Assembly (NCBI RefSeq): GCF_008329525.1
Contig: NZ_NPKQ01000001.1
Location: 620,001 to 684,000, forward strand
Length of the DNA: 64,000 nt
Reading direction: 5' to 3'
From: Tardiphaga sp. P9-11
GTDB lineage: Bacteria > Pseudomonadota > Alphaproteobacteria > Rhizobiales > Xanthobacteraceae
Of the stretch, positions 39,253 to 58,550 are shown one piece after another. How positions within the stretch are numbered: position 1 is the first letter of the stretch; the number at the start of each line of letters is the position of its first letter. Below the pieces are notes generated by a model. It saw only the letters and a list, made by a program, of their open reading frames with translations, was not told where the DNA came from and did no database searches. The translations under genes and the position numbers were made by a program.

Positions 39253-39272
39253 CCCGGACAAGCTTGTGCGGG
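39253..39272. promoter_or_regulatory. Back-to-back flagellar motif between flgF and motA
   Basis: CCCGGACAAG (39253-39262, plus strand) and CTTGTGCGGG (39263-39272, the reverse complement of CCCGCACAAG) abut exactly, giving one motif copy per strand and a near-palindrome. On the minus strand the copy extends to CCAGCCCCGCACAAG, matching the flgB and flgE sites. The divergent genes start 91 bp (motA) and about 140 bp (flgF) away. Confidence 0.55.
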
Positions 39273-39353
39273 GCTGGCCGCCGCAGACACATGTCAGCCT
39301 CGTGCAAGCATCGTTGCCTAAGTGAATTGCATCCTCAATTTGGAGCGGTGCGC

Positions 39354-40259
39354 TTGAGCATTCTCTTTGGTGTCATAATCACACTCGCCAGTCTGATCGG
39401 GGGCTTCACCGCGATGGGCGGGCATCTCAGCGTGATATGGCAGCCTTGGGAGTTCGTCATTATTATGGGGATGTCGCTGGGCACCTATGTGATCGCGAAC
39501 CCCTGGAAGACTGTCGTCGATACCGGCCGCGCCACCGTGCAGGCCCTGACTGTCGCAGTGCCGAAGCAGCGTCATTACCTCGATCTACTCGGGCTTTTGC
39601 ATTCGCTGATGCGTGAAGTGCGGAATAAGGGCCGCAACGAGGTGGAGGCCCATATCGATGACCCGACGTCATCTGAAATCTTCACCGCCTTCCCGACGGT
39701 GCTCGCCAACGAGCCTCTTCTGCACTTCATCTGTGACTATTTTCGCCTGATCATCATGGGCAGTGCGCGGCCGCATGAGATCGAAGCGTTGATGGACGAA
39801 GAGATCGAGACCATCATCCGCAGCAAGATGAAGCCATACGGCTCGTTGATGATGGTCGCTGAAGGCCTGCCGGCCCTCGGCATCGTCGCCGCAGTGCTCG
39901 GTGTCATCAAGGCGATGGGTGCGCTTGATCAGTCTCCGAAATTGCTCGGTGGCTTCATCGGAGCGGCTCTGGTCGGCACCTTTGCGGGCATCTTTCTGTC
40001 CTACGGACTCGTTGCGCCGCTCGCGCACAAGATCAAGCTGGTGCGCGAGCAGCGCGCCCGGATGTATGTGATTGTCAAGCAGTCGCTGCTGGCCTTCATG
40101 AATGGGGCTTTGCCACAGATCGCGATCGAGCATGGTCGCAAGATGATCGGCCCCGGTGAACGCCCGTCGATTGATGTCGTCGAAAGCGAAACTATCTCCG
40201 GCGGTCCTGCGAAGGCGTCACCAGCTGAACCCTCGGCGAAAGCGGGAGCACGGGCCTGA
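39354..40259 (+). CDS. motA: Flagellar motor stator protein MotA
   Basis: A proton-channel stator subunit of 301 residues with four membrane helices: ILFGVIITLASLIGGFTAMG, WEFVIIMGMSLGTYVIA, then MVAEGLPALGIVAAVLGVIK and IGAALVGTFAGIFLSYGLV. The cytoplasmic loop between helices 2 and 3 carries charged residues (MREVRNKGRNEVE) that push on FliG. The start is TTG at 39354, with GGAG 8 bp upstream; the long reading from 39102 would cross the regulatory motif. The stop overlaps the fliM start by 1 bp. Confidence 0.94.
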   Translation: MSILFGVIITLASLIGGFTAMGGHLSVIWQPWEFVIIMGMSLGTYVIANPWKTVVDTGRATVQALTVAVPKQRHYLDLLGLLHSLMREVRNKGRNEVEAHIDDPTSSEIFTAFPTVLANEPLLHFICDYFRLIIMGSARPHEIEALMDEEIETIIRSKMKPYGSLMMVAEGLPALGIVAAVLGVIKAMGALDQSPKLLGGFIGAALVGTFAGIFLSYGLVAPLAHKIKLVREQRARMYVIVKQSLLAFMNGALPQIAIEHGRKMIGPGERPSIDVVESETISGGPAKASPAEPSAKAGARA

Positions 40260-41194
40260 TGTCAGAAGTGAAGTCAGGCCGCGTGGATCAAGGATCGGAT
40301 CAACTTCTAGGAGCCGCCGGAATTTCCGTCGAACGCATGCCCATGCTGCATGTGATTTTCGACCAGATGACGAATCTCTGCGCCGAAAGCCTACGATCTA
40401 TGTCGCCGTCGCAGTCGTATTTCTCGTTGAGCAGCGTGGGCAGCGATCGTCTCTCCGATATCCTCGATCGCTATGAAGGCGAAGCCATTGCCGCGGTGTT
40501 CTATGCGCAAGCATGGGATGCGCGCATCCTGATCGGTTTCGATCGCGATTTCGTCTATACGATGATCGAGCTCCTATTCGGCGCCGATGGTGCGGAGCCG
40601 CCGCTGGATATGCCCCGGGTGTTTTCGAATGTGGAACTGCATGTCGCGCAGTCGCTGTTCGAGCGCTTCGGTAAGGCACTGCAGGCATCATTCGATCGCG
40701 CTTCCGACGTGACGTTCAATCTGGAACGCGTCGAAACGCGCATGGATTACCTCGCGATCGGTCGCCTTAACAACATGGCTGTTTGCGCGAAGATCCTGTT
40801 GCAGGGTCTCGATCGCGGCGGCGAGATGTTCATCGTCATTCCGCATGCCGCGCTTAATCCAATCCGGCAGGCGCTGTCACAGATCGTATCCGGTGAATCG
40901 GCTTCCACCGATCCGAACTGGAGCCGCCAGCTCCATAGCGAAATCAAGCGAACCGAAGTCGTGCTGAAGGCGGTTCTCGAAGAGCGACAGTTTACCCTCG
41001 GCGAGGTCGCAAAGTTTCACGTCGGCCAGGTACTCAAGCTCAACGCCACACCGGACACCATGGTTCGCCTCGAATGCAATGATCAACGCCTGTTCTGGTG
41101 TCAGCTCGGCCAGATGAACGGCGTCTACTCACTGCAGGTCAAGGAATCGGCCGACCAAAAACGGGAATTTATCGATGGTATCCTCGCTCGTTGA
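40259..41194 (+). CDS. fliM: Flagellar motor switch protein FliM
   Basis: The middle part of the switch complex, 311 residues, somewhat shorter than the usual 330. The central CheC-like domain runs from about residue 35 to 225 (NLCAESLRSMSPSQSYFSL, EVVLKAVLEERQFTLGEVA) and the C-terminal SpoA/FliN-like domain from about 240 (AKFHVGQVLKLNATPDTMVR). The N-terminus MSEVKSGRVDQGSDQLLGAA lacks a clear EIDALL-type CheY-P-binding motif, keeping at most a degenerate DQLL. It is followed by an overlapping 94-residue gene and fliN. Confidence 0.92.
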   Translation: MSEVKSGRVDQGSDQLLGAAGISVERMPMLHVIFDQMTNLCAESLRSMSPSQSYFSLSSVGSDRLSDILDRYEGEAIAAVFYAQAWDARILIGFDRDFVYTMIELLFGADGAEPPLDMPRVFSNVELHVAQSLFERFGKALQASFDRASDVTFNLERVETRMDYLAIGRLNNMAVCAKILLQGLDRGGEMFIVIPHAALNPIRQALSQIVSGESASTDPNWSRQLHSEIKRTEVVLKAVLEERQFTLGEVAKFHVGQVLKLNATPDTMVRLECNDQRLFWCQLGQMNGVYSLQVKESADQKREFIDGILAR

Positions 41195-41459
41195 CATCAT
41201 CCTTTTCGCAGCCCTGCTCTTCACGAGCATTCGCGTCACCAAGATGCATCGCGAGCTCGTCAAGTTGCGTGCCCATCAGGGCGAGTTCACCGCCGTGGTC
41301 GGCAAGACCAATGAGACGGTGGACGACATGGTGTTGATGGTGCGCGAATTCAGCTCGGACGGGCGGCAAATGGTCCAGGCGCTCGGTGACAAGATCGACG
41401 AGGCGCGCAAGGCCATCGTGGAAATCGATACTCGCACTGCGGCGCAAAATCCGGCTTAG
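41175..41459 (+). CDS. Small membrane-anchored coiled-coil protein between fliM and fliN
   Basis: A 94-residue protein with one N-terminal membrane helix (LVDIILFAALLFTSIRVTKM) and a long predicted helix of heptad character (ELVKLRAHQGEFTAVVGKTN through MVQALGDKIDEARKAIVEID). It overlaps fliM by 20 bp and precedes fliN by 33 bp, so it belongs to the motA-fliG operon. I recall a gene at a similar place in other rhizobia but no defined role. A motor accessory or local assembly factor is possible. Confidence 0.75.
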   Translation: MVSSLVDIILFAALLFTSIRVTKMHRELVKLRAHQGEFTAVVGKTNETVDDMVLMVREFSSDGRQMVQALGDKIDEARKAIVEIDTRTAAQNPA

Positions 41460-41492
41460 GCCAAGATCTGAGATTTCAAGAAGGCAGGGGAC

Positions 41493-41885
41493 ATGAAGCA
41501 ACCATTCGATATCGATCCAGTAAGCGCGGCACCCGCCACCGATCCGCTCAAGGCTGACGGCGCGTCGTTTGGCAAACTGGCTGATCTCGCGGCGCGCGCT
41601 GCCGAGGAGACGAGCCGGCTGACGAATCTCGAGCCGATCCTGCGCATCCCGGTCACGGTGCAGGTGCTGCTCGGCTCCGCGACTATGCCGGTTGCGGATC
41701 TGATGAAACTCGGCCGTGGCGCTGTGATCCCGCTCGACCACCGTGTGGGTGAGCCTGTCGAGGTCGTCGTCAACGGACGCATCGTCGCGCGTGGCGCGGT
41801 AGTCGTCGTGGAAGATGAAAATTCGCGTTTTGGTGTATCGCTGACGGAAATCGTCGGAGGAGCGGCCGGGGATTCGGACGCTTAA
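41493..41885 (+). CDS. fliN: Flagellar motor switch protein FliN
   Basis: The C-ring base protein, 130 residues. The SpoA fold covers the second half: RIPVTVQVLLGSATMPVADL, LGRGAVIPLDHRVGEPVEV and VNGRIVARGAVVVVEDENSR. The first 45 residues are a variable Ala-rich lead. It binds FliM and FliH during export and rotation. It lies between the 94-residue gene and fliG. Confidence 0.94.
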   Translation: MKQPFDIDPVSAAPATDPLKADGASFGKLADLAARAAEETSRLTNLEPILRIPVTVQVLLGSATMPVADLMKLGRGAVIPLDHRVGEPVEVVVNGRIVARGAVVVVEDENSRFGVSLTEIVGGAAGDSDA

Positions 41886-41912
41886 AGAGATTTTCCCAAA
41901 GAGATATTCCTT

Positions 41913-42950
41913 ATGGCATTCAATGCACCTGCCAAACGCGCCGGCACCAGCGTCAAACCGTTGGGTGGCACCGAGAAAGCGGCAGCTCTTCTGTTGGCCA
42001 TGGGGCGTGAGCTCTCGGGCGGCCTGCTTCGAGAGTTCGATCCCGAAGAGATCAAACTGGTCACGCGCGCTGCGGCCGAGCTCAAGCCCATCTCAGGGCC
42101 TGAACTTGAGGCGATCATCGAGGAGTTCGCACAGAATTTCTCGGAAGGTCCGAATATCTTCGGCACTGTCGGTGAGCTGGAGAAGCTGTTGAATGGTGTG
42201 CTGCCGCCGGAACAGATTACTGACATCATTTCCGAAGTTCTGGGCAACAAGACGAAATCGGTGTGGGAGCGCATCTCGCTCGTCTCGGAAAGTCTGCTCG
42301 CCAACTATCTTCTCAAAGAGCATCCGCAAACTGCCGCGCTCATTCTCTCGCGGGTAAAGCCGGCCTGCGCTGCCCGCGTGATGAGCCATCTGCCACCGGA
42401 TATCCGTCACGACCTGATGCGACGTATGCTCAGCCTCAAGCCTGTTGTCGAGGATGCCATGAGCATTATCGAGAAAACGATGCATGAAGACTTCATGATC
42501 AACTTCGCTCGCAACCTGGCATCCGACACCTATCCGCGCATGGCTGACATCATCAACAAGATGGAGCGGACGCAGATGGAGGAATCGCTGAAGAACCTCA
42601 CCGAATCGCGACCGAAGTCGGCCGAGATTCTGAAGGGTATGCTGTTCACCTTCGACGACATCGTCAACCTTACGGCCAAAGCGCGCATGCTGATCTTCGA
42701 TCAGGTGCCAACCGACCGCGTGGTGATGGCGCTCAAGGGATCGGATACGACATTCCGCGAGCTCATTCTGTCGTCGTTGGCGTCGCGCACCCGTCGTCTG
42801 GTGGACCACGAACTGGCTAACGGCATCCCCGCAAATCAGCGCGAGATCCTGGACGCGCGGCGCGCCATTACCGACCTTGCGCTCGATATGGCCGGGCGCG
42901 GCGAAATTGAACTCAATCCCGATCAAGAAGACCAGCCGGTATTCACCTGA
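41913..42950 (+). CDS. fliG: Flagellar motor switch protein FliG
   Basis: The torque-generating rotor protein, 345 residues. The N-domain (GGTEKAAALLLAMGRELSG) attaches to FliF; the middle domain has the EHPQ motif (KEHPQTAALILSRVKP); the C-domain has the charged torque helix (GMLFTFDDIVNLTAKARMLI through RVVMALKGSDTTFRELILSS). The length fits the family. It lies 13 bp upstream of flhB. Confidence 0.95.
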   Translation: MAFNAPAKRAGTSVKPLGGTEKAAALLLAMGRELSGGLLREFDPEEIKLVTRAAAELKPISGPELEAIIEEFAQNFSEGPNIFGTVGELEKLLNGVLPPEQITDIISEVLGNKTKSVWERISLVSESLLANYLLKEHPQTAALILSRVKPACAARVMSHLPPDIRHDLMRRMLSLKPVVEDAMSIIEKTMHEDFMINFARNLASDTYPRMADIINKMERTQMEESLKNLTESRPKSAEILKGMLFTFDDIVNLTAKARMLIFDQVPTDRVVMALKGSDTTFRELILSSLASRTRRLVDHELANGIPANQREILDARRAITDLALDMAGRGEIELNPDQEDQPVFT

Positions 42951-42962
42951 AGATAGAGCATT

Positions 42963-44039
42963 GTGTCTGACGAACCCGACAAGGACAGTAAAACCGAAGA
43001 GGCGACAGAGAAGAAGGTTCGTGATTCCGTTGAGAAGGGTCAAATCCCGGTCTCGCGCGAAGCGCCGATTTTCGCCTCTATGCTCGCGCTATTGATTATT
43101 CAAAGCTTCTTGACCACCGACAACGTCAGAAGGCTGACATTCACTTTAGCCCGATTGATCGACGATCCGTCGGGCATCCGCATCCGTAATGGAACGGATG
43201 CTATTGGGTTGCTCTCCGCGGTCGGTATGAGTGCGGCGGGACTGGTTATTCCGATTGTTATCGTCCTGATGCTGGCCGGGCTGGCGTCATCTTTCCTGCA
43301 GAACGCGCCGCGAATTGTGTTCGATCGCATCCAGCCGGAACTTTCGCGCATTTCGATTGCGAAGGGATGGGGCAGAATCTTCGGCGCGCAGGGACGTGTG
43401 GAATTCGGAAAATCGGTCTTCAAGTTCGTCGCTATCAGTCTGGTTGTGATGATCGTCTTGCGGGCTGAGGAGGCCGTGGCCGTGAATGCATTGTTTAGCG
43501 ATCCGGCGGCTGTTCCGGAATTGGTGCTGACCACAGCAATGCGGCTTGTATCCGCCATCAGCATTGCGACCATTGTCCTGGTGTCGCTCGACCTCGTCTG
43601 GGCACGCTTCCATTGGCGCCGTGAACTGCGGATGACGAAGCAGGAAATCAAGGATGAATTCAAGCAGGCCGAAGGCGATCCGATCGTTAAATCGCGGCTA
43701 CGCTCGCTGGCACGTGACCGCGCCCGCAAGTCGATGCTGGCGGCCGTGCCGCGCGCCACGCTGGTGATCGCGAATCCCACGCATTACGCGATTGCGCTGA
43801 AGTACAAGCAGGGCGAAGACGCTGCGCCGACGGTACTTGCAAAGGGACAGGATCTGGTTGCGCTGAAGATAAGGGAAATCGCCGAGAAGAACGGCGTACC
43901 CGTGGTGGAAGACAAAATGCTGGCGCGCTCGATGTATGATGTTGCATACATCGACAAAATGATCCCGTCAGAGTTCTTTCGCCCTGTTGCAGAAATCATC
44001 TACTTCCTGCATTCGCGCAAACAGAAGACAAACGCGTAA
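42963..44039 (+). CDS. flhB: Flagellar export gate protein FlhB
   Basis: A membrane protein of the type III export gate, 358 residues. A charged N-terminus (MSDEPDKDSKTEEATEKKVR) precedes four membrane helices and a cytoplasmic autocleavage domain with the NPTH motif at 271-274 (VIANPTHYAIALKY). Self-cleavage after the Asn switches export from rod/hook to filament substrates. The start is GTG at 42963. It ends the motA operon and is followed by the flgB promoter region. Confidence 0.95.
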   Translation: MSDEPDKDSKTEEATEKKVRDSVEKGQIPVSREAPIFASMLALLIIQSFLTTDNVRRLTFTLARLIDDPSGIRIRNGTDAIGLLSAVGMSAAGLVIPIVIVLMLAGLASSFLQNAPRIVFDRIQPELSRISIAKGWGRIFGAQGRVEFGKSVFKFVAISLVVMIVLRAEEAVAVNALFSDPAAVPELVLTTAMRLVSAISIATIVLVSLDLVWARFHWRRELRMTKQEIKDEFKQAEGDPIVKSRLRSLARDRARKSMLAAVPRATLVIANPTHYAIALKYKQGEDAAPTVLAKGQDLVALKIREIAEKNGVPVVEDKMLARSMYDVAYIDKMIPSEFFRPVAEIIYFLHSRKQKTNA

Positions 44040-44068
44040 GTGCTCTGCGCATGTCGTGATGCGCATCT

Positions 44069-44083
44069 CCAGCCTCGGACAAG
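44069..44083 (+). promoter_or_regulatory. Flagellar upstream motif before flgB
   Basis: CCAGCCTCGGACAAG lies 49 bp upstream of the flgB GTG. It matches the copy before flgE at 14 of 15 positions and the minus-strand copy before flgF at 13. A TATAC-like stretch follows at 44094-44098. This gap separates the flhB end from the flgB-fliP operon. Confidence 0.55.
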
Positions 44084-44132
44084 TTTCCATTTGTATACCA
44101 TGACGAAGGAATCATGTTCGCCTGGGGGATAA

Positions 44133-44510
44133 GTGGGACCCGTCTATCTCTTCGACGTCGCCTCATCGCATGAGCGATGGCTGTCGCTGCGACAGTCCGC
44201 AATCTCGGCGAATGTCGCCAATGCGAACACGCCCGGCTATCGCGCGCAGGACATTGAGCCGTTCAACAAGATCCTCGATTCGAAAGTCGTGCCTGTAACG
44301 GTGACGTCGCCGGCGCATATCACGACCGGCTCATCGGTTGAGGCCCAAGGCATGCGCAAGGAAAAGAGCTGGGAGACCGTTCACTCCGGTAACTCCGTCA
44401 GCCTTGAGCAGGAGATGCTGAAGGCCGGCGATATCAATCGTGACTACTCGCTGAATACGGCGATCGTCAAATCGTTTCATCGCATGTTCATGACAAGCAT
44501 GAAGACCTGA
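44133..44510 (+). CDS. flgB: Flagellar basal-body rod protein FlgB
   Basis: A proximal rod subunit of 125 residues. The start is GTG at 44133 with GGGGGAT just upstream. The rod signature is RQSAISANVANANTPGYRAQ near residues 20-39, and the C-terminus INRDYSLNTAIVKSFHRMFM is the matching heptad region. It is first in the operon flgB-flgC-fliE-flgG-flgA-flgI-motE-flgH-fliL-fliP, the same order as in Sinorhizobium. Confidence 0.94.
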   Translation: MGPVYLFDVASSHERWLSLRQSAISANVANANTPGYRAQDIEPFNKILDSKVVPVTVTSPAHITTGSSVEAQGMRKEKSWETVHSGNSVSLEQEMLKAGDINRDYSLNTAIVKSFHRMFMTSMKT

Positions 44511-44521
44511 GGGAGTTGACA

Positions 44522-44938
44522 ATGATTGACCCATTACAGGCATCCGTTCAGATCGCAAGTTCTGGCCTCGAGGCGCAATCAACTCGCCTGCGTGTGGTTT
44601 CGGAGAATCTTGCCAATGCCAATTCGACTGGACGTACGCCCGGCTCCGACCCCTATCGTCGAAAGACGACGACCTTCACGGCAGAAATGGATCGTGCCGC
44701 CGGCGTGCGCATGGTCAAGGTCAAAGATATCGGAACCGATCAGGCGCCGTTCCGCGTGGATTACGAGCCAGGCCATCCGGCGGCCGATGCAACCGGCTAT
44801 GTGAGGCTGCCCAATGTTAACTCGCTAATCGAAATGGGGGACATGCGGGAAACCAATCGGTCCTTCGAAGCGAATCTTCAGGTCATCAAACAGGTGAGGT
44901 CCATGGTTTCGATGACCATCGATCTCTTGAGGAGCTAA
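44522..44938 (+). CDS. flgC: Flagellar basal-body rod protein FlgC
   Basis: A rod subunit of 138 residues starting MIDPLQASVQIASSGLEAQS. The rod signature is LRVVSENLANANSTGRTPGS, and VRLPNVNSLIEMGDMRETNR precedes the C-terminal heptads. The ATG at 44522 has GAGGGAG upstream; a TTG two codons earlier is less likely. It assembles with FlgB and FlgF. Confidence 0.95.
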   Translation: MIDPLQASVQIASSGLEAQSTRLRVVSENLANANSTGRTPGSDPYRRKTTTFTAEMDRAAGVRMVKVKDIGTDQAPFRVDYEPGHPAADATGYVRLPNVNSLIEMGDMRETNRSFEANLQVIKQVRSMVSMTIDLLRS

Positions 44939-44940
44939 CA

Positions 44941-45261
44941 ATGCTTGAAGCGGTATCCTCAGTCATCAGCAGTGCTGGCGAGCTCGCGAAAGCCAGCGAA
45001 GTCATAAATGCTGCTACGCCCGCGGTGCAGCCGGGCGCATCCACCGTTGGCTTCAACAACGTCCTCGAACAGGTCGCCGCCGATGCCATCGGTTCGATCA
45101 AGGCCGGCGAAGCCGCGTCGATCCAGTCTATTCACGGCAAGCTCTCGGCACAGAAGGTGGTCGAAGCAGTCATGTCTGCTGAACGGTCGTTGCAGATGGC
45201 TGTCGCCGTCCGCGACAAGGTCGTTGCGGCGTATCAAGAAGTCAGCCGAATGGCGATTTGA
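44941..45261 (+). CDS. fliE: Flagellar hook-basal body complex protein FliE
   Basis: The rod-MS ring junction protein, 106 residues. The N-terminal half is a variable Ala-rich stretch; the conserved C-terminal half reads SIQSIHGKLSAQKVVEAVMS and LQMAVAVRDKVVAAYQEVSR. It is exported first and joins FliF to the rod. It lies 2 bp after flgC. Confidence 0.93.
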   Translation: MLEAVSSVISSAGELAKASEVINAATPAVQPGASTVGFNNVLEQVAADAIGSIKAGEAASIQSIHGKLSAQKVVEAVMSAERSLQMAVAVRDKVVAAYQEVSRMAI

Positions 45262-45270
45262 GGTTCAATC

Positions 45271-46059: not shown

Positions 46060-46084
46060 ATCCACAGAACGGGATCTCGGCCTG

Positions 46085-47661: not shown

Positions 47662-47726
47662 ACCCGGGTCAGCGTCACGCAAGCCAAAGCGTGCAAGGCT
47701 CGCTCAGCTGAATCACGAGAACACTA

Positions 47727-48383
47727 ATGGTGCGCGCCGGAAATCGATCGATCAAGTCTCTTCTGCTGATCGGCATGGTGATGTCGACGTCGGCATTTGC
47801 CGAGCCCGAGCAGAAGCTCTCGAAGCCGCTCAACCTTGGTGAATTTGCGAAGACGCCGCAGGTTGCACGCCCCCGCCCGGCCGCAAACAAGCAAGACCTT
47901 GTGGCGCGTTCGCTTGCTGATTCGGCGCTGATCACGGGCGCAATCGACAAGAAGGATAGCGCGGTCGCTAACTCGCAGGAATCCGACGTCGCCCGCTTTT
48001 GCAGTAACATCGCAGACCAGGCGCTCGATGCCCGTGTGGCGTGGCAGCAGAAAGAGCTGGAAGCCACCGAATCCAAGCTGAAGCTACGTATCGCCGAACT
48101 TGAGGCCAAGCGCGCCGAATATGAGGAATGGCTGAAGCTGCGCGAAGAATTCCTCAAAAAGGCGGAAGACAGCGTCGTCGAAATCTATTCGCGCATGAAT
48201 CCGGAAGCTGCGGCACAGCAGATCGCCAGCATGGCTGACGATACGGCAGCTGCCGTGCTTGCCAAGCTGAGAGTCCGCGTTGCCAGCGCGATCCTCAATG
48301 AGATGGAGCCGGCACGGGGTGCACATCTCGCCGATACGCTCGCTGGTATGCGTCGCACAGACGACGGGAAAGCCAAGAAATGA
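47727..48383 (+). CDS. motE: MotE-like periplasmic chaperone (MgtE-N-like domain)
   Basis: A 218-residue exported protein with a signal peptide (SLLLIGMVMSTSAFAEPEQ), a long central coiled coil (about 95-150; KELEATESKLKLRIAELEAK) and a C-terminal helical domain (YSRMNPEAAAQQIASMADD, MEPARGAHLADTLAGM) like the N-domain of MgtE. In Sinorhizobium MotE folds and stabilises MotC, and its gene also lies between flgI and flgH. The stop overlaps flgH by 4 bp. Confidence 0.88.
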   Translation: MVRAGNRSIKSLLLIGMVMSTSAFAEPEQKLSKPLNLGEFAKTPQVARPRPAANKQDLVARSLADSALITGAIDKKDSAVANSQESDVARFCSNIADQALDARVAWQQKELEATESKLKLRIAELEAKRAEYEEWLKLREEFLKKAEDSVVEIYSRMNPEAAAQQIASMADDTAAAVLAKLRVRVASAILNEMEPARGAHLADTLAGMRRTDDGKAKK

Positions 48384-50313: not shown

Positions 50314-50355
50314 ATCATTTGATTCATCACGATGTAAGTGACGAATCAAATGATC
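50313..50355. terminator. Near-perfect 18-bp inverted repeat after fliP
   Basis: GATCATTTGATTCATCAC (50313-50330) and GTGACGAATCAAATGATC (50338-50355) pair with one mismatch around a 7-nt loop. The left arm starts on the last base of the fliP stop. There is no T-run and the stem is unusually AT-rich for a terminator, but it cleanly separates the fliP operon from the flagellin gene. Confidence 0.6.
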
Positions 50356-50475
50356 GCTGTTAACTATACGAGCCGCCGCCGCCTTCAGCTTTGGGTAAGG
50401 TTTGGCGGCTAGCTTGCAATTCACGACAGGTTGGGTCGATCAGATCGACATTCCAAAGGCATGATGCCGCCCTCT

Positions 50476-50532
50476 CGTACCGGTGAAAGTCCGGTATGTC
50501 CCCAGCAAATCAATCAAATTAAAGGGACATAC
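50476..50532 (+). promoter_or_regulatory. Flagellin mRNA leader with two mutually exclusive hairpins
   Basis: Hairpin A pairs 50476-50483 (CGTACCGG) with 50491-50498 (CCGGTATG), 7-nt loop, one G-U pair. Hairpin B pairs GTATGTCCC (50494-50502) with GGGACATAC (50524-50532), 9 perfect pairs and a 21-nt loop, and so buries the Shine-Dalgarno AGGGA directly before the ATG at 50534. A and B share 50494-50498 and cannot form together. This looks like a translational switch and is a natural target for FlbT-type control. Confidence 0.6.
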
Positions 50533-50533
50533 G

Positions 50534-51787
50534 ATGTCTAGCTTGATGACCAATACATCCGCCATGACCGCACTCCAGACCCTGCGGTCGGTCACGGATA
50601 GCCTTGCAACCACCCAGAACCGCATCTCCACGGGCTATCGCGTGTCGACCGCTTCGGACAACGCCGCTTACTGGTCGATCGCCACCACGATGCGTTCGGA
50701 CGTTCAGGCTCTGGGTGCCGTGCAGGACGCCCTCGGCCTCGGCGCCGCGACCATCGACACCATGTATACCGGCCTGAGCGCCACGGTCGACGTCGTGTCG
50801 TCAATCAAGGCCAAGCTGGTTGCTGCCCGTACGCCGGGCGTCGATCGCGCGAAGATCCAGAGCGAAATCACCGAGCTGCAGAAGCAGCTGAAGAACACCG
50901 CCGACAGTGCGGTTTTCAACGGTGAAAACTGGATCTCGGGTGATTCGAGCAGCGCCAGCTACAACGCGACCAAGAGCGTCGTGTCGTCGTTCTCCCGCGC
51001 CGGTGGCGCAGTCAAGATCGATACGCTCTCGGTCGATCTCGCCGCCATCAAGCTCTATGACGCGAATGTCGACACAGCTTACAATGCCCAGACGTTCCCG
51101 ACGGGCACCACCACGGCCTATGCTGCTGCCACCGACGTCGGTGGCAATATCACGGTGACAGTCGGTAGCGCTGCGGCGGTCAATGTCTCGATCGCCAAGG
51201 GCTCGTCACGTGAAGACGTTGCCGCGGCGATCAATTCGCTCGGCATCGACGGTCTGACGGTCGGCGTGGGAACCAACGGCACCACGCTCGAATTCAAGAG
51301 CCGCAACGCCGCCAACGTCGTGATCGATGCCAGCGTTGCCGGCCTTGGCGGCGCTGTCACGCTGACCGCGCTTGCCGCGCCCGTCACTTCTCAGAAGGGC
51401 GTTCTCGACGGCACCATGGACGCCTATAACGGCACTGCCTGGGAAACCTTCAGTGTTTCGTCGATGGACATCTCGAAGCTTACGGATAACGCCGCTGACC
51501 TCGCCAAGCTTGAGACCTACATCGCGGGCACCGATCAAGCGCTGGCCAAGATCACCGACTCGGCCACCAACCTCGGCGCCATCAAGAACCGCATCGGCCT
51601 GCAGCAGAACTTCGTCAAGACCCTGACCGACTCGCTCGATCGCGGTATTGGCCAGCTCGTCGACGCGGACATGAACGCCGAATCGACCCGCCTCCAGGCT
51701 CTGCAGGTTCAGCAGCAGCTCGGCATCCAGGCGCTGTCGATCGCGAACTCGGGCAGCCAGAGCATCCTGTCGCTGTTCCGCGGCTAA
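50534..51787 (+). CDS. Flagellin
   Basis: The filament subunit, 417 residues, the only flagellin gene in the window. The conserved D0/D1 N-terminus reads MTNTSAMTALQTLRSVTDSL and NRISTGYRVSTASDNAAYWS; the C-terminus reads NRIGLQQNFVKTLTDSLDRG and QLGIQALSIANSGSQSILSL. The central surface domain (about 180-310) is rich in Ala, Thr, Gly and Val. The ATG at 50534 has AAAGGG 7 bp upstream; the reading from 50483 would translate the leader. It has its own leader and terminator. Confidence 0.97.
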   Translation: MSSLMTNTSAMTALQTLRSVTDSLATTQNRISTGYRVSTASDNAAYWSIATTMRSDVQALGAVQDALGLGAATIDTMYTGLSATVDVVSSIKAKLVAARTPGVDRAKIQSEITELQKQLKNTADSAVFNGENWISGDSSSASYNATKSVVSSFSRAGGAVKIDTLSVDLAAIKLYDANVDTAYNAQTFPTGTTTAYAAATDVGGNITVTVGSAAAVNVSIAKGSSREDVAAAINSLGIDGLTVGVGTNGTTLEFKSRNAANVVIDASVAGLGGAVTLTALAAPVTSQKGVLDGTMDAYNGTAWETFSVSSMDISKLTDNAADLAKLETYIAGTDQALAKITDSATNLGAIKNRIGLQQNFVKTLTDSLDRGIGQLVDADMNAESTRLQALQVQQQLGIQALSIANSGSQSILSLFRG

Positions 51788-51810
51788 TCGCTCTCGCATC
51801 GTGAACAGGA

Positions 51811-51848
51811 ATGGCCGCGACCGTCATGGTCGCGGCCATTTCGTTTTC
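51811..51848 (+). terminator. Rho-independent terminator of the flagellin gene
   Basis: ATGGCCGCGACC and GGTCGCGGCCAT form a perfect 12-bp stem with a 5-nt loop, followed by TTCGTTTTC. It lies 23 bp past the flagellin stop. Confidence 0.88.
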
Positions 51849-51863
51849 TAGCTCTCCGTAACC

Positions 51864-51873
51864 CTCGGACAAG
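51864..51873 (+). promoter_or_regulatory. Flagellar upstream motif before fliF
   Basis: CTCGGACAAG is identical to the core of the flgB copy; the flank (GTAACC) differs from CCAGCC. It lies 42 bp upstream of the fliF ATG and 16 bp after the flagellin terminator, so it would serve the fliF-fliK operon. Confidence 0.5.
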
Positions 51874-51915
51874 CTTCACAATCGATGATCGATTCGGAAG
51901 TGGGCAGAGGTATTT

Positions 51916-53559
51916 ATGGTCAATCGCGAGCACGCGCAGAAGCTCTGGAACAATTTGCTTGAGCTGGGTACGAAGCGTCTCATTCTGCTTGCGGTAGTTG
52001 GCCTCGCCGTATTCGGCGGTGTTGGCGGCGGCGCCTATTATATCAGCCGCCCGGAATACAACGTTCTCTATTCAGGCCTGAGCCGCGAAGACGTCACGCG
52101 TGTCAGTTCGGTGCTGCGCGATGCGAATATCGCTTTCGATCTGAATACGGCGGGGGATACCGTCTATGTTCGTCCCGGACAGACGGCGCAGGCGCGTACG
52201 TTGCTAGCCGACAAGGGTCTGCCCAGCACCACCGGCGGCGGTTATGAGCTGTTCGACAAGATTGGCTCTCTCGGCCTGACGTCATTCATGCAGGAAATCA
52301 CGCGCGTGCGTGCGCTTGAGGGCGAGATCGCGCGGACGATCCAGGTTCTCAAAGGAGTCAAGGCGGCGCGCGTCCATATCGTGATGCCTGCGCGCGGCTC
52401 GTTCCGGCGCGAGCAGTCGCCGCCGTCGGCTTCGGTCGTATTGCGAACGGATGGTCCGGCGGATGCACGCACGGCACGCTCCGTGCGTCATCTCGTAGCC
52501 GCGGCCGTGCCGGGAATGACCGCGGACAAGGTCACCGTGCTCGACAGTGACGGTTCGCTGCTTTCGGACGATGACGGCAGCGGCAGCGTCGGGGCAACGC
52601 CGACCACGATGGCCAATTTGCAGAAGGTCGTCAGCCGCTCGATCCAAGAGAATGTGAGTCGGGCACTGACACCCTATCTGGGGCTCGATAATTTCGAGGT
52701 CAGTGTTGCGACCCAGCTGTCGACTGACAAGAAACAGACCAACGAGACGGTCTACGATCCGGATTCGCGGGTGCAGCGCTCTGTGCGCGCTGTGCGCGAG
52801 AAGGAAACGTCACAGAGCCTCGATCGCCAGCAGCCGACGACGGTTCAACAAAACCTGCCTGACCAGCAGGTCAATGCGACCGGTGCCAAGAATCAGAATG
52901 ATGAGAAGCAACGCCGCGAAGACATCACCAATTACGAAGTGTCGTCGAAGACGGTGACGACCACGAGCGATGGTTTCGTGGTGAACAAGATGTTTCTCGC
53001 CGTTCTGGTCAACCGGCCGCGTCTCATTGCGAGCCTTGGCGACAAGGTGAGCGATGCTGCGATCGAAGCCAAGGTCGCGGAGATCTCGCAGATTGCTGCG
53101 ACCGCAGCTGGCATCGATCGCCCGCGCGGCGACCAGATTCAGGTTTCGGCGGTTGAATTCATAGAAGGTGCGCGCGATCTCGCGCCGGTGCCGTCGATCA
53201 CCTTCACCGAGGTGATGATGCGTCAGGCAGGCAGTCTCGTGAGTGCCATCACCATCCTGGCCGTGGCCGGCATGCTGATCTGGTTCGGTTTGCGCCCGGC
53301 AATCAATACGATTCTGGCGAGCGCGAAGACCGACGAGACAACGCAGTTCCAGGCGGAGACGAATGCGCTGCTCAGTGGCGGCAGCACGATGGCGACCGCG
53401 GCTCTGTCAGGAGGCGAGGCTCCGCCCAATCTTATCCAGGATGTCTCGAGTAGTATGCAGAATACACCGCAGAAGCGGTTGGAACAGATTATCCAGCTCG
53501 ATGAGAAGCAGGCGGCAGCGATTCTGAAACAATGGATCAGACAAGAGGAAGCGGTATGA
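51916..53559 (+). CDS. fliF: Flagellar MS-ring protein FliF
   Basis: The membrane ring on which the basal body is built, 547 residues. It has an N-terminal helix (LILLAVVGLAVFGGVGGGAY), periplasmic ring-building motifs (YNVLYSGLSREDVTRV, LEGEIARTIQVLKGVKAARV) and a C-terminal helix near SAITILAVAGMLIWFGLRP, then a FliG-binding tail (MQNTPQKRLEQIIQLDEKQA). ATGA overlaps the next gene. Confidence 0.96.
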   Translation: MVNREHAQKLWNNLLELGTKRLILLAVVGLAVFGGVGGGAYYISRPEYNVLYSGLSREDVTRVSSVLRDANIAFDLNTAGDTVYVRPGQTAQARTLLADKGLPSTTGGGYELFDKIGSLGLTSFMQEITRVRALEGEIARTIQVLKGVKAARVHIVMPARGSFRREQSPPSASVVLRTDGPADARTARSVRHLVAAAVPGMTADKVTVLDSDGSLLSDDDGSGSVGATPTTMANLQKVVSRSIQENVSRALTPYLGLDNFEVSVATQLSTDKKQTNETVYDPDSRVQRSVRAVREKETSQSLDRQQPTTVQQNLPDQQVNATGAKNQNDEKQRREDITNYEVSSKTVTTTSDGFVVNKMFLAVLVNRPRLIASLGDKVSDAAIEAKVAEISQIAATAAGIDRPRGDQIQVSAVEFIEGARDLAPVPSITFTEVMMRQAGSLVSAITILAVAGMLIWFGLRPAINTILASAKTDETTQFQAETNALLSGGSTMATAALSGGEAPPNLIQDVSSSMQNTPQKRLEQIIQLDEKQAAAILKQWIRQEEAV

Positions 53560-54251
53560 GCGCAGAGCAAGTCGCACGTCTGATCGCCGATTTCGATCGA
53601 CCGGAGCTGGCAAAGACACGCAGCCGTGTCGTTCCGTTCGATCATCTGCATCACTCCAGCGTGCAGCCGCAACATCAGCCGCTTCTGCAGAAGGCAAAAC
53701 AGCAACCGTCGTTTCAGCCGCAGCCGCAGACGCAACCAAAGCCACTCCCCGTGCAGGAGGATGATGGCTATGAGCGCGGTCGCGCCGAAGGCTATGCGAG
53801 TGCGCTCGCCGAGTTCGAGCGACGCCTGGAGCACGAGAAGCAGGCACTTGCGGCACAGGCCGCCGAGGAACGGCAGCAACTGCTCAACGAGACTGCAGCC
53901 AAGCTCGCCGGCGACATTGCCGAAATGGGTGACCAGTTACAGAGAAGAATCGCCGGCGTAGCCGCCCGACTTCTCGAACCGCTCATTAGTAACGCTGTGC
54001 AGAAACAGGCAGTTACGTCATTCATCGAGCATCTGTCGTCGATTACGACCGATAGCCGCCGCCCGGTCCTGCGCATCACTGGCCCATCGGAACTGCTCGA
54101 CCTGATCCGCAGCAAGCTCGGTGTACGCGCCATTGCATCGGAACTGCGTGCGGGCCCCGAAGCGGAAGCGTCGATTGTCGTTGATCAGATCGTGCTTGAG
54201 ACTCAGCTCAAGGTCTGGACCGAGCGATTGAAGATGGCGGTCCAAAGCTGA
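53556..54251 (+). CDS. fliH: FliH-like export regulator
   Basis: A cytoplasmic protein of 231 residues. A Gln/Pro-rich linker (about 35-75) is followed by the FliH-type element YERGRAEGYASALAEFERRL, a coiled coil (HEKQALAAQAAEERQQLLNE) and a globular C-terminus (VLRITGPSELLDLIRSKL, EASIVVDQIVLETQLKVWTE) like FliH/HrpE. FliH binds FliI and FliN. The ATG overlaps the fliF stop; an ATG at 53532 would add eight residues. Similarity is weak, so the assignment rests on architecture and position. Confidence 0.72.
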   Translation: MSAEQVARLIADFDRPELAKTRSRVVPFDHLHHSSVQPQHQPLLQKAKQQPSFQPQPQTQPKPLPVQEDDGYERGRAEGYASALAEFERRLEHEKQALAAQAAEERQQLLNETAAKLAGDIAEMGDQLQRRIAGVAARLLEPLISNAVQKQAVTSFIEHLSSITTDSRRPVLRITGPSELLDLIRSKLGVRAIASELRAGPEAEASIVVDQIVLETQLKVWTERLKMAVQS

Positions 54252-54252
54252 G

Positions 54253-55587
54253 ATGGCCGATCCGCTTCCAACCGAAATAGTGATTATCCGCCGCCGGAGT
54301 TCTCTCGAGAGCGGCGAGACGAAGAACAGTGTCTGGAAAATCGCCTACGCCGACTTCATGACGGCGATGATGGCGTTCTTCCTGGTGATGTGGCTGATCA
54401 ATGCCACCAATCAGGAAACGCGTGAGAGCGTTGCCACCTATTTCAATCCGATCAAGCTGACGGACTCAACCCCGGATCGTAAAGGCATCAACGATGCCCG
54501 GCGGGTTGACCCTGGCAAGGCCGTAGAAGGCGAGAGCAAGTGGCCGCATCCGGAGCCAGGTCAGCCGACGGATGCGCTTGCGCGTCCGCAACCTCCGCAG
54601 CCTCGCTATGGCGAGGCGAGCTTGTTTCGCGATCCTTATGCGGTGCTGTCGGAAATCGCCGGTGGTCCCCCGCGTCCCGGGCAGACCAGCGCAGCGCTCG
54701 ATCCAAGCCGCAAAGAAGGGCTGAAGGGCGGAGAGGCCTATCGCGATCCGTTCGACCCGATCAACTGGCCGATGGCGTCGATCTCGTCGCTTGAGAAGAA
54801 GCTGTCGGGGCGCAAGGATGCCGGCAGCCTTCCATTCGGTGAGGATGTTGCTGCTGCAGCGAGCGAAGGACAGGAGCCACGTCCGCTCGATGCCAAGCCT
54901 GATGCCACCGGGTCTCCGGGTCAGGAAATGTCCGGATCGAATTCAACTCCTGCGAAATCCGACAAGCAGGAGGCGCCGAAGCCCGCCGGGTTGTTTGCAG
55001 ACGACGGCGACAAGTCCAACCCGGCAGCGGGCCGCCCGCAACCGGCGCAGGCAGACAGGGCGGCGGCGGCTGACAAATCCCAAACGCAGCCTGACAAGGC
55101 GCCCGCCCAGGCAGAAAAAGCCCAGCCGATGGACGCTGCCAAGCTCCAGGCCGCAATCTCGGCGGCACTGGCCGCCATTGGACCGGCCCGTCCCGTGGCC
55201 GAAGTGAGGGAAACGCCCGAAGGACTCCTGATCAATCTGACGGATGACGTGAATTACGGAATGTTTGCAAGCGGCTCGGCGGAGCCCACGCCCGGTCTCG
55301 TTCGCGCACTCGACAAGATCACACCGATGATCGCGCAGAACCGCGGTCAGGTCATTGTGCGCGGTCACACCGATAGCCGCGTCTATCGCACGTCGGAATA
55401 TGACAACTGGCGACTCTCGACCGCGCGTGCGCATATGGCATATCACATGCTGGTGCGCGGCGGCCTCGATGCCGGGCGAGTCGAACGCATCGAGGGCTAT
55501 GCAGACCGCCGGCCGAAAATTCAGAATGATCCGCTCGCCGCGCAGAATCGGCGGATCGAGCTTCTGATCCGTGCTCCCGTGCTATGA
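54253..55587 (+). CDS. motB: Flagellar motor stator protein MotB
   Basis: A stator subunit of 444 residues. The single membrane helix IAYADFMTAMMAFFLVMWLI contains the proton-binding Asp; a long Pro/Ala/Lys-rich linker (about 75-300) follows, and the C-terminal OmpA-like peptidoglycan domain has RGHTDSRVYRTSEYDNWRLS and RRIELLIRAP. The linker is much longer than in enteric MotB (about 308 residues total), as in rhizobia. It overlaps motC by 4 bp. Confidence 0.95.
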   Translation: MADPLPTEIVIIRRRSSLESGETKNSVWKIAYADFMTAMMAFFLVMWLINATNQETRESVATYFNPIKLTDSTPDRKGINDARRVDPGKAVEGESKWPHPEPGQPTDALARPQPPQPRYGEASLFRDPYAVLSEIAGGPPRPGQTSAALDPSRKEGLKGGEAYRDPFDPINWPMASISSLEKKLSGRKDAGSLPFGEDVAAAASEGQEPRPLDAKPDATGSPGQEMSGSNSTPAKSDKQEAPKPAGLFADDGDKSNPAAGRPQPAQADRAAAADKSQTQPDKAPAQAEKAQPMDAAKLQAAISAALAAIGPARPVAEVRETPEGLLINLTDDVNYGMFASGSAEPTPGLVRALDKITPMIAQNRGQVIVRGHTDSRVYRTSEYDNWRLSTARAHMAYHMLVRGGLDAGRVERIEGYADRRPKIQNDPLAAQNRRIELLIRAPVL

Positions 55588-56771
55588 CCAGCACCAGGAT
55601 CATTGCAGCAACGCTTCTAGCCTGTCTTGGCAGCGCACATGCGCAGCCGGCCGACGACCAAATGCGCGAGCCGTATCAGATGGTTCGTTCATTGCAGATG
55701 CTGCAAGATCAGATTGCGCGCGGTGATCTCGACGCGCACAATTCCCAACCCGCCCTGCTGAAGCGCCTGGGTGAGAGCTTCCTGAAAGCCGATGCTGCCG
55801 TCTGGAAGGAGCCGCGCAATTCGCGTGCAGCTGTCACCTTTCTCCTGAGTGGTGGGTCGCCGCAAGTGGTTGCGAGCCTCCGCTCCCGCAACGTATTGAA
55901 TATTGACGAGGCGATTGTCGATGGCGCCATCGCCTATGTCGAAGGGCGTACGGACGAAGCGAAATCAAAGCTCGCCAATATCAAGCCACGCAGTCTGCCT
56001 GCGGCACTCGGTGCCGAGATTGCGCTGGTTCAATCGGCACTGGTTGCACAGGACGATCTGAAGGTCGCGATCGCGTTGCTCGACGAAGTGCGGTTGATGA
56101 TGCCGGGCACGCTGGTCGAGGAAGCGGCACTGCGTCGAGAGATTTTCATCGTCGGGCAGGACGACGACTTCGACAAGTTTGAAGCCCTCGCGGTGCGTTA
56201 CTTTCGCCGATATCGGCATTCTATCTATGCAGGAAATTTCCGCCAGCGCTTCGCGCTCTCTGTTGCACGCTTCAGCTTCGTGCAACGTCCCGATCGTTTC
56301 CCGCGCCTCGTCGCCGTACTCGATCACCTCGATCGGGCGAGCCAGCGTGCACTCTATCTTCTGATTGCGAGAACGGCATTGGTTCGTGGCAAGACTGAAA
56401 TGACAGTACTCGCTGCCGACCGTGTATTCGCATTGTCCGATGACGACAGCGCCGAGCGCGTGCGCGCGCGCCTGTATCGTGCCGCGGCACGCGTTGCCAC
56501 ATCTGCACACAGTACTGCAATTGCCGAGCTTGAGCAGATCGACAAGGCAAAACTGTCCGAACGAGATGTCGAACTGCAAACTGCGGCGCTCGCTATTGGA
56601 CTGAATGTTCGAAAGGCGCTGCCGGAGGCTAAGGCCAAGAGCGACGGAAGCAGCGAAGCGAAGACGGCCATGCGGCCGCGCATTGATTTCAGCCGCTCTC
56701 TTGCCGCCGTCGATCGCGCGCAAAAGCTGCTCGATGCATCGCAAGAGCAATTAAAGGAGAAAACCCGATGA
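55584..56771 (+). CDS. motC: Periplasmic motor protein MotC (rhizobial)
   Basis: A periplasmic protein of 395 residues with a signal peptide (IIAATLLACLGSAHAQPADD) and a mostly helical mature part (MVRSLQMLQDQIARGDL, RLGESFLKADAAVWKEPRN, FLLSGGSPQVVASLR). In Sinorhizobium MotC binds MotB and is needed for motor function. Here it sits between motB and fliK, with its chaperone MotE encoded 7 kb upstream. Confidence 0.92.
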   Translation: MTSTRIIAATLLACLGSAHAQPADDQMREPYQMVRSLQMLQDQIARGDLDAHNSQPALLKRLGESFLKADAAVWKEPRNSRAAVTFLLSGGSPQVVASLRSRNVLNIDEAIVDGAIAYVEGRTDEAKSKLANIKPRSLPAALGAEIALVQSALVAQDDLKVAIALLDEVRLMMPGTLVEEAALRREIFIVGQDDDFDKFEALAVRYFRRYRHSIYAGNFRQRFALSVARFSFVQRPDRFPRLVAVLDHLDRASQRALYLLIARTALVRGKTEMTVLAADRVFALSDDDSAERVRARLYRAAARVATSAHSTAIAELEQIDKAKLSERDVELQTAALAIGLNVRKALPEAKAKSDGSSEAKTAMRPRIDFSRSLAAVDRAQKLLDASQEQLKEKTR

Positions 56772-57991
56772 ACAATGCCGATCTCCTGATGGCAGCGCTT
56801 CGCCAGACAGCGGCCGGAAAGGCCGGGGCGAAAGGCGGATTGAATGGCGGTGCCCATGCCAAGGACGGCAAGGAGAAGGCCGATCATTTTCGCGAGCAGC
56901 TCCGCCTGGTCTCAAAGGAGACCAAAACAGTCACGCCGCGTGCGGCCAAGACAGTTGATGACGCGAAAATCGTTGATGCAAAGCCGATGCTCGACGCGGC
57001 ATCCGTTCTTGCGGAACTGACGAGTGAAGTCGCGCAAAAACCGAATGTCAGCGACGATCAAACCGATGATGACGATTCAAAGGCCACGAAGGGCGACGAG
57101 AGCGCGACAAAATCTGCACCCTGGCGCGGGCCGGATCCCGCGCTCAGCGCGGTAATGGCCAAACTCGATCACGCACACTCACCTTTGCCAAGCGATGACA
57201 AGGCGGCGTCCCGCATCTCGGTGCCGGACGTGAAGGCAGATGATGCTTCGCTCGATCCCACAAAGCTCATTCATGCCGCAAAAGCTGATGAGCCTGATGC
57301 TGATACGGCTGCCACGCAACGCTTCACGCTGACGGTCGAGACGACGGATACCAAGCCGCTTCCAGCTGCCAAGGCGGTCGTTCGTGAACAAGAGACGCAT
57401 TTCGAGCCCGTGCAGCAGGTTACGACGTTGCAAAAGATCGTCGATCGGATGGCGACCGATCTCGCGGCGGTCGCATCACCTGAAGGCGCTCGCGCGGCTG
57501 ACGCGCCGGGGCCCGAAGCGCACAAGGTTGCGGATAGCCGGCCGGTGCGCATGATGACGCTCGAACTCGATCCGCCGAATCTCGGTTCTGTCACCGTGAA
57601 GATGCGACTTGCCGGCGATTCCGTGGAGATTCACCTCACCGCGGATCGCTACGAGACCACGCAGATGCTGCGGCAGGAGCGCGGAGCGCTCACCGACGCC
57701 ATGCAGTCGGCTGGCTATACCTTCGACATCGCGGCGATCGATCATACCCAAACCCCCGACGCAAATCTGAACAACGGTCAGCAGCAACAGCAAGCGCCGT
57801 CCGATCAACGTTCTTCGCTGCCATCGTCAGGCGGATCGCAGGCGGACGGCGGTTCTTCGGGCCGGTCGTCCGGCGATGCGCAGAGCGGCGCACGGCATAA
57901 CAGGCAGGATCATGAGCAATCGCCAAGGTCGTCAGAGCGGCAGCAGGACCAGGCTAACAATCGGGTTCGTAGCAGCACTGTTTATATCTAG
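56768..57991 (+). CDS. fliK: Hook-length control protein FliK (rhizobial MotD)
   Basis: The export substrate that measures hook length and triggers the FlhB switch, 407 residues. The first 230 residues are Ala/Lys/Asp-rich and poorly conserved. The C-terminal Flg_hook domain is clear: MMTLELDPPNLGSVTVKMRL, AGDSVEIHLTADRYETTQML and ALTDAMQSAGYTFDIAAI. The last 60 residues are low-complexity Gln/Ser/Gly. The gene was called motD in Sinorhizobium. It overlaps motC by 4 bp and the next gene by 80 bp. Confidence 0.92.
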   Translation: MNNADLLMAALRQTAAGKAGAKGGLNGGAHAKDGKEKADHFREQLRLVSKETKTVTPRAAKTVDDAKIVDAKPMLDAASVLAELTSEVAQKPNVSDDQTDDDDSKATKGDESATKSAPWRGPDPALSAVMAKLDHAHSPLPSDDKAASRISVPDVKADDASLDPTKLIHAAKADEPDADTAATQRFTLTVETTDTKPLPAAKAVVREQETHFEPVQQVTTLQKIVDRMATDLAAVASPEGARAADAPGPEAHKVADSRPVRMMTLELDPPNLGSVTVKMRLAGDSVEIHLTADRYETTQMLRQERGALTDAMQSAGYTFDIAAIDHTQTPDANLNNGQQQQQAPSDQRSSLPSSGGSQADGGSSGRSSGDAQSGARHNRQDHEQSPRSSERQQDQANNRVRSSTVYI

Positions 57992-58520
57992 CGCTGCGAC
58001 TGACGCTCGGGCCGAAGGCCCATGCGAACGGGAGATGGCACGCGCGGCACGCCGCCACAATGTGCCACTCGGCGTGCTGTTTGCTGTCGGGCTCAGCGAG
58101 ACCGGACGCAAGGGCGTGCTGAATCCTTATGCGCTCAATGTCGATGGCAGGACAGTGCTGGCCACCGATCTGCGCAATGCCGTTGCGCGCTTTACAGAAG
58201 AAAAGAGCAAGGGCGCCAAGCTGGTCGATCTCGGCTGCATGCAGATCAATCATCGCTATCACGGCGAGAAATTCCCCAACGTGGAGGCGATGTTCGATGC
58301 CGCACGCAATGTCGATTATGCCGCGCGATTCCTGAAAGATCTGCGGGAACGCGAGGGAAACTGGACGATGGCTGTCGCGCGCTACAATGCCGGGCCGACC
58401 AATGTCGTCGGCCAGAAACGCTACATCTGCAGCGTTATCGGCAGTCTTGTCGCAAGCGGTTTCGGGTCATGGACGAGCAAGGCACGCGACTTCTGCGCGG
58501 AACGCACTGCGTCACGATGA
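57912..58520 (+). CDS. Lytic transglycosylase SLT-domain protein
   Basis: An exported peptidoglycan lyase of about 202 residues with a signal peptide (TIGFVAALFISSAATDARAE). The catalytic Glu is in VGLSETGRKGVLNPYALNV; GCMQINHRYHGEKF, DAARNVDYAARFL and MAVARYNAGPTNV are SLT-fold motifs. The family is usually longer, so this is a minimal domain. It lies between fliK and flgE and probably opens peptidoglycan for the rod or hook. The best ATG lies 80 bp inside fliK; later starts would cut the signal. Confidence 0.85.
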   Translation: MSNRQGRQSGSRTRLTIGFVAALFISSAATDARAEGPCEREMARAARRHNVPLGVLFAVGLSETGRKGVLNPYALNVDGRTVLATDLRNAVARFTEEKSKGAKLVDLGCMQINHRYHGEKFPNVEAMFDAARNVDYAARFLKDLREREGNWTMAVARYNAGPTNVVGQKRYICSVIGSLVASGFGSWTSKARDFCAERTASR

Positions 58521-58535
58521 CCCTGTGGATAACCG

Positions 58536-58550
58536 CCAGCCTCGCACAAG
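58536..58550 (+). promoter_or_regulatory. Flagellar upstream motif before flgE
   Basis: CCAGCCTCGCACAAG lies 44 bp upstream of the flgE ATG, with a TAATAC stretch at 58563-58568. It differs from the flgB copy at one base. It would drive flgE-flgK-flgL-flaF-flbT-flgD-fliQ. A good ribosome-binding site (GGAGGA) precedes flgE. Confidence 0.55.

Follow-up and report, generated by a model that had tools for sequence, protein, structure and literature searches.

A tandem direct repeat with a -10-like hexamer precedes the lateral flagellar operons of Tardiphaga sp. P9-11 and is a predicted operator of LafR

Introduction

Which sequence marks the promoters of the lateral flagellar operons of Tardiphaga sp. 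P9-11, and which regulator is likely to read it? The stretch of DNA analysed here (the window: 64,000 nucleotides, G000:C12:620001-684000 of a 6.16 Mb genome; positions below are those of the window unless a locus is named) carries, at 37-67 kb in its numbering, a lateral, Rhizobium-type flagellar cluster, the genes of which we named by sequence reading, Pfam and orthologue order. Further FlgE-like matches lie on another contig of the same genome, C16, and a lateral flagellar system is described for all Tardiphaga species examined in PMC6406911. Among rhizobia and their relatives, Rem, FtcR and LafR are already familiar as master regulators of the flagellum, and activation of lateral or class II flagellar genes has been reported for LafR and Rem (PMC8429497, PMC9812332).

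An earlier note on this DNA had pointed to a 10-mer, CYCGSACAAG, shared by the upstream regions of five flagellar units. Here we report that the 10-mer belongs to a larger element, a switch-like repeat that precedes the main groups of lateral-flagellum genes of this soil bacterium and of many of its relatives. The element appears to be a real and conserved operator-promoter, most likely that of LafR, Rem and FtcR, and its predicted binder in Tardiphaga is LafR.

Results

The window contains exactly five copies of CYCGSACAAG, at 39253 (+), 39263-39272 (-), 44074, 51864 and 58541, against 0.59 expected, and none of 100 dinucleotide shuffles reached five; the number is indeed above chance, as had been claimed. 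The longer 15-mer, CCAGCCYCGSACAAG, is free of mismatches at 44069, 58536 and 39263-39277 (-), and the coordinates give gaps of 49, 44 and 42 bases between the 10-mer and the start codons of flgB, flgE and fliF, in agreement with the earlier note. A scan of the whole genome returned 68 matches to the 10-mer, 63 of them outside the window, which is about what chance would provide (the chance rate for the window, scaled to the genome, gives ~57). The 10-mer is too short and not specific alone, and we rejected it as a marker of the whole regulon. Its five copies are fragments of a larger element.

An unseeded mixture model sought the commonest 26-mer in 171 upstream regions from Hyphomicrobiales genomes, namely the 170 bp before the starts of motA, flgB, flgE, fliF, flhA, flgF and flagellin in relatives with this flagellar type. 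Near-duplicates (G001, G016, G009, G004, G008, G013 and G334) were left out of this search and of the training-set and cross-family counts below, and gene starts were skipped if the tblastn match was short by more than 25 residues or too near an end. The motif that emerged, [CA]AGCYTCG-nnn-AAGSTTSG-N5-TA, describes an 8+3+8 tandem direct repeat, CAGCCTCG-nnn-AAGCTTCG, with an 11-bp period and a TAnnnT hexamer behind it (the box, hereafter). The matrix trained on a single family has the consensus CAGCCTCG-CGC-AAGCTTCG. Direct-repeat similarity within the 19-bp core peaks at lag 11 with a score of 0.918, the next best being 0.80 at lag 10. Of 20000 column permutations, 24 reached this score, or 86 when the best of lags 8-12 was taken, whereas the inverted-repeat scores of the core do not exceed 0.764. 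The core thus consists of two direct half-sites with a period of the ~10-11 bp that characterizes operators of OmpR/PhoB-type regulators.

In 109 sites the hexamer occupies columns 25-30, with T at a frequency of 0.65 in its first position, A at 0.88 in its second and T at 0.76 in its last, and from its sequence we read it as a -10 hexamer of the housekeeping type. A -10 at these columns places the half-sites at approximately -36 to -29 and -25 to -18, and the transcription start near column 37. No TTGACA-like -35 element is conserved at the box positions, and the layout of repeat plus -10 looks like the plan of an activator-dependent promoter. A sigma-28 promoter reads TAAA-N15-GCCGATAA and a sigma-54 promoter TGGCACG-N4-TTGCW. 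Neither pattern was seen when we inspected the unsupervised motif, where the repeat and TAnnnT stand in their place, as the earlier note had anticipated in setting the element apart from both promoter types; nor was a CtrA box, TTAA-N7-TTAA, seen on the same inspection, no separate scan having been run for any of the three.

As controls we used the upstream regions of operon-internal flagellar genes. With the matrix derived from the 171 regions, none of 342 control regions scored above 9 bits, a value that was exceeded in the training set before motA (20/20), flgB (28/28), flgE (23/25), fliF (23/27), flhA (17/25), flgF (7/21) and flagellin (7/25). The low count for flagellin is due in part to the distance of its box from the gene, frequently 150-209 bp, which brings it to the edge of the 170-bp region or beyond. 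In a cross-family test, the matrix was trained on one family only (f1, 45 regions) and applied to other families (33 entries). Among the 253 held-out controls the top score was 11.1 bits, which was surpassed in the other families by 14 of 14 regions before motA, 20 of 21 before flgB, 14 of 18 before flgE, 16 of 21 before fliF and 12 of 18 before flhA, as well as by 2 of 15 before flgF and 4 of 19 before flagellin. Among species-assigned loci, boxes above 14 bits precede flhA in 58/65 cases, flgE in 25/26, fliF in 19/19, flgB in 4/4 and motA in 2/2; three of these flhA sites, one flgE and one fliF site share an identical 100-bp context with the other genome set, and loci L275, L276 and L320 are shared between the two sets.

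The candidate regulator is encoded close by. LafR, an OmpR-type protein, lies on the minus strand at G000:C12:688855-689565 (L080:8855-9565), at the end of the lateral cluster and 4.9 kb past the window, out of sight of the earlier note. It shows 99% identity to its counterpart in Tardiphaga robiniae Vaf-07 (Tardiphaga belongs to the Nitrobacteraceae, Hyphomicrobiales), 53-82% to those of Bradyrhizobium and 50-59% to those of other genera. Pfam recognizes only Trans_reg_C, the DNA-binding domain, and, judged by eye, at least 90% of 27 sequences have alanine in the alignment column that corresponds to the BasR aspartate; the alignment matches the PDB chains of BasR and KdpE by sequence. Matches to LafR at E <=1e-25 were found in 122 of 397 sampled genomes of the order. 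When 17 genomes were tested for a LafR orthologue (E < 1e-60), all 10 with this FlgE type had one and none of the 7 without it did, these seven holding only remote paralogues. An orthologous regulator, as a Rem/FtcR/LafR regulon calls for, is present in the genome. In a further sample of 10 LafR-positive genomes, six of which had few or no flagellar genes seen near the regulator, the box stands before flgE in all seven that have a FlgE match, at 15.8-23.7 bits, with the next best score anywhere in these seven loci at 7.7. The region upstream of lafR itself (L080:9566-9725) carries a genus-conserved block, AGTAACTGTTGTGTTGCGTCT...CAAGACAAAAATGGGGCGA, which is not the box.

A matrix scan of the window found seven strong boxes of at least 18.0 bits, where a first-order Markov model expects 0.1 sites above 18 bits per 80 kb. 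The box on the flgF-fliI side, at 39251..39276 on the minus strand, scores 24.4 bits (21.2-25.5 bits in 8/8 genus members) and contains the 39263-39272 copy of the 10-mer together with part of the 39253 copy, the latter by way of the palindromic AAGCTT. The motA box lies at 39295..39320 on the plus strand, as do all the following boxes of the window; it scores 24.4 bits (22.4-24.4 bits in the 8/8 genus members examined), stands 59 bp before the start codon and has a -10-like TAAGTG at 39319-39324. The 39253 copy, which had been proposed as the motA element, reaches only 9.0 bits with its upstream half; in the genus, five members give 9.0-10.6 bits and the other three -0.3, 0.6 and 0.4 bits. 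The near-palindrome that it forms with the flgF copy is not conserved across the genus and was rejected as a functional unit; it arises because half-site 2 (AAGCTT) is itself palindromic. Both the 39253 copy and the palindrome are by-products of the flgF-side box.

The flgB operon has its box at 44070..44095 (22.6 bits, 63 bp before the start codon, -10-like TATACC at 44094-44099) and fliF at 51860..51885 (21.8 bits, 56 bp before the start codon). That of the flgE-flgK-flgL-flaF-flbT-flgD unit lies at 58537..58562 (18.0 bits, 58 bp before the start codon), with its -10-like hexamer displaced by 2 bp, and that of flhA at 63917..63942 (21.6 bits, 59 bp before the start codon). The flagellin box, at 50386..50411 (20.6 bits, -10-like TAGCTT at 50410-50415), stands 148 bp before the start codon. 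A weak box of 13.3 bits at 47670..47695, 57 bp before the open reading frame (ORF) 47727-48383, keeps 13.3-15.9 bits in 8/8 genus members, and its equivalent after flgI reaches 15.5-19.1 bits in 5/5 Bradyrhizobium-type clusters. We read this ORF, which has Pfam matches to MgtE_N and FliG_M near the cut-off, as probably MotE-like. Outside the window, on the minus strand at 71380 in window numbering (G000:C12:691380), a box of 22.8 bits precedes an ORF of 300 amino acids, the family of which follows the box in 7 genomes. The earlier note had overlooked this box and those at 39295 (motA), 63917 (flhA), 50386 (flagellin) and 47670.

Two of the neighbouring genes deserve description. The 300-aa protein (L080:10458-11360; window numbering 70458-71360) has an apparent membrane segment and a coiled coil, and no Pfam family matches it above the cut-off. 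In T. robiniae a DUF1217 gene (L082:16218-17030) follows the flgF-side box and precedes flgF. Its counterpart here (39115-39250) has suffered an internal deletion that left the two ends in different frames and kept the box.

Downstream of the flagellin box, CGACAGGTT (50424-50432) had been taken for a weaker relative of the element. We rejected this candidate: a conserved flagellin leader (50424..50533, plus strand) begins with it, and this leader adjoins the box and is separate from it. Many genomes of the order share the sequence at 50424-50536, CCAAAGGCATGATGCCGCC...ACCGGTGAAAGTCCGGTATGTCCC...AAGGGACAT-ATG, in strongly conserved form, and base pairing is possible between its UGUCCC and GGGACA at the ribosome-binding site. 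For 21 sequences RNAalifold predicts 11 pairs, of which 2 are changed on both sides, and the leader of the window folds only 1.67 standard deviations better than shuffles, so that the structure rests mainly on conservation. No Rfam family matches the leader at E <= 1; it is presumably a target of FlbT. As to the number of flagellin genes, two or three lateral copies are present in the Bradyrhizobium-type clusters L363, L364, L365, L366 and L270, and in clusters of this type the later copies have strong boxes and the first a weak one only.

Across 2.76 Mb of mostly flagellar-cluster DNA we found 276 sites above 17 bits, 4 of which are exact repeats. This count omits most Bradyrhizobium-type loci (L282-L312 except L288, L314) as well as L275 and L276, all of which are retained in the species-assigned count above 14 bits. 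An ORF of at least 90 aa starts within 230 bp of 270 of the 276 sites. By best match to a gene of the window, the downstream genes are flgE (39), fliF (37), flhA (36), flgB (25), motA (18), flagellin (16) and flgF (6). Other families that follow the box are FlgJ-like (15), DUF1217-like (9), MotE-like (7) and CheY-like (5), labels given by reading one sequence each without Pfam on it, and the family of the 300-aa protein (7).

The profile of the box (R1) is too short to give strong E-values across a whole genome; 150 candidates were scored in each. At E <=0.05 there were 31 matches in 16 LafR-positive genomes, some of them training sites, versus 3 in 15 LafR-negative genomes. We also considered places outside the flagellar cluster, in a sample of 18 plus L271, which ends 100 bp after its site. 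In LafR-positive genomes, 6 of 13 such places precede chemoreceptors, a flagellin or DUF1217, versus 0 of 6 in LafR-negative genomes, one of the six being too near a contig end to tell.

Discussion

We consider, with a probability of about 0.78, that the box is the operator of LafR, which would bind it in place of a -35 element and activate the regulon. The analysis shows the element, its architecture, its placement and conservation and its presence in genomes with LafR; that LafR is the binder, the sigma factor and activation are what we infer. LafR, orthologous to Rem and FtcR and encoded at the cluster end, would be an orphan, aspartate-less activator of the OmpR/PhoB type. Two monomers would bind head-to-tail to the two 8-bp half-sites, at the 11-bp period, over ~-36 to -18, and would recruit the housekeeping RNA polymerase to TAnnnT at -12 to -7. 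LafR is proposed to replace the -35 contact because no TTGACA-like -35 is conserved. Transcription would start ~37 bp downstream of the first box base, ~20-25 nucleotides before most start codons. In this way LafR would switch on the flgF-fliI, motA, flgB, flagellin, fliF, flgE and flhA units, and probably the MotE-like gene; in other genera it may also drive chemoreceptors, DUF1217 genes and further flagellins. The earlier suggestion of a site for a FtcR/Rem/LafR-type activator, or of part of a promoter, is thus the best-supported reading, in view of the 11-bp tandem repeat, the -10 and the co-occurring regulator, while its motA copy, palindrome and flagellin relative have to be given up.

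With somewhat less assurance, we think it probable that the 8+3+8 repeat plus TAnnnT is a shared operator-promoter of LafR, Rem and FtcR across the Hyphomicrobiales, that it defines their regulon and that the primary site is not the motif published for FtcR. If so, the regulon of the order could be read from sequence alone, and would comprise basal body, hook, motor, export gate, flagellin, DUF1217 and chemoreceptors.

Several observations weigh against LafR as the binder. Chromatin immunoprecipitation sequencing (ChIP-seq) of Brucella FtcR reports a different motif, TGTGGGCA, together with autoregulation (PMC9456535). We found this motif in 0/171 upstream regions and 0/342 controls, and rejected it as the shared element. 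No box above 14 bits precedes lafR or rem (0/80 and 0/53 upstream regions), and autoregulation of lafR through the box was rejected on this count. In Bradyrhizobium, the strongest of the flagellin boxes, with up to 29.4 bits, belongs to the gene at the lafA2 position, and the one at the lafA1 position has a box of only 8.8-13.8 bits (4 Bradyrhizobium genomes) or none above 13 bits (5 Bradyrhizobium-like genomes), a placing of the two genes that rests on locus numbers and gene order; lafA2 is reported to be the only lateral gene of B. diazoefficiens that is not under LafR (PMC10888616). Three of 10 LafR-positive genomes have no FlgE match at E <=1e-20. In its own genome LafR is one of 19 OmpR-type matches, the other 18 being possible binders too, and 7 of the 14 profile matches at E <=5 lie outside the cluster. 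Sites above 14 bits also occur before other genes, namely flgC (1/4), flgG (1/5), flgD (2/37) and flaF (1/67). The points concerning lafA2, the FtcR motif and LafR without FlgE lower the case for LafR, but none of them kills it.

Could the element be read by a dedicated alternative sigma factor, as an extended -35 and spacer followed by a -10, with LafR acting indirectly? The near-fixed spacing to the -10-like hexamer and to the start codon would suit this, and so would the strong boxes of lafA2-position flagellins, given the reported independence of lafA2 from LafR. However, the -10 has the TAnnnT form of the housekeeping sigma, and the segment from -36 to -18 is conserved as two repeats spaced 11 bp apart rather than as a -35 block with a free spacer, and we regard a sigma factor of this kind as improbable. 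We would give no more credit to a different regulator that binds the box and through which LafR acts, VisN/VisR for instance or any of the other 18 OmpR-type proteins of the genome. Such a regulator would likewise accommodate the report on lafA2. Against it, LuxR-type regulators generally use inverted repeats, and the core scores 0.764 at best as an inverted repeat versus 0.918 as a direct one. Moreover, according to PMC8429497, B. diazoefficiens and A. caulinodans lack VisNR, whereas the box is present in Bradyrhizobium. Finally, that a GC-rich 10-mer should recur here by chance or through base composition, as the 63 matches elsewhere in the genome might suggest, is scarcely credible, given that the element is conserved across families in much the same position before the same operons and is absent from operon-internal control starts.

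If LafR is the binder, a defined operator would make its regulon predictable in many genomes, and transcription starts predictable to within a few bases. It would also tie uncharacterised genes (DUF1217 and the 300-aa protein) to the flagellar regulon, and would make two conflicting reports, the FtcR ChIP motif and the LafR-independent lafA2, directly testable.

Rem of Sinorhizobium meliloti and Rhizobium, FtcR of Brucella and LafR of Bradyrhizobium are an orthologous OmpR-like regulator that governs overlapping class II operons, and their receiver lacks the usual aspartate. The motif published for FtcR, TGTGGGCA, differs from the box, and FtcR is reported to regulate itself, whereas no box precedes lafR. 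We found no published operator of Rem or LafR in the literature searched, which excluded Rotter 2006 (Rem) and Mongiardini 2017 (LafR), and part of the operator finding may already be in print. The operators of PhoB, PmrA (BasR) and KdpE resemble the box in their tandem direct repeats with an 11-bp period near -35, and differ from it in the sequence of the half-sites. PhoB and PmrA boxes consist of two such repeats near the -35 of an activator-dependent promoter; the LafR-type box reaches to ~-18, nearer to the -10 than the pho box does. The CtrA-dependent flagellar promoters of other Alphaproteobacteria are alike in being under an OmpR-family activator and often divergent, but CtrA uses TTAA-N7-TTAA, unlike the LafR-type box (PMC6180460).

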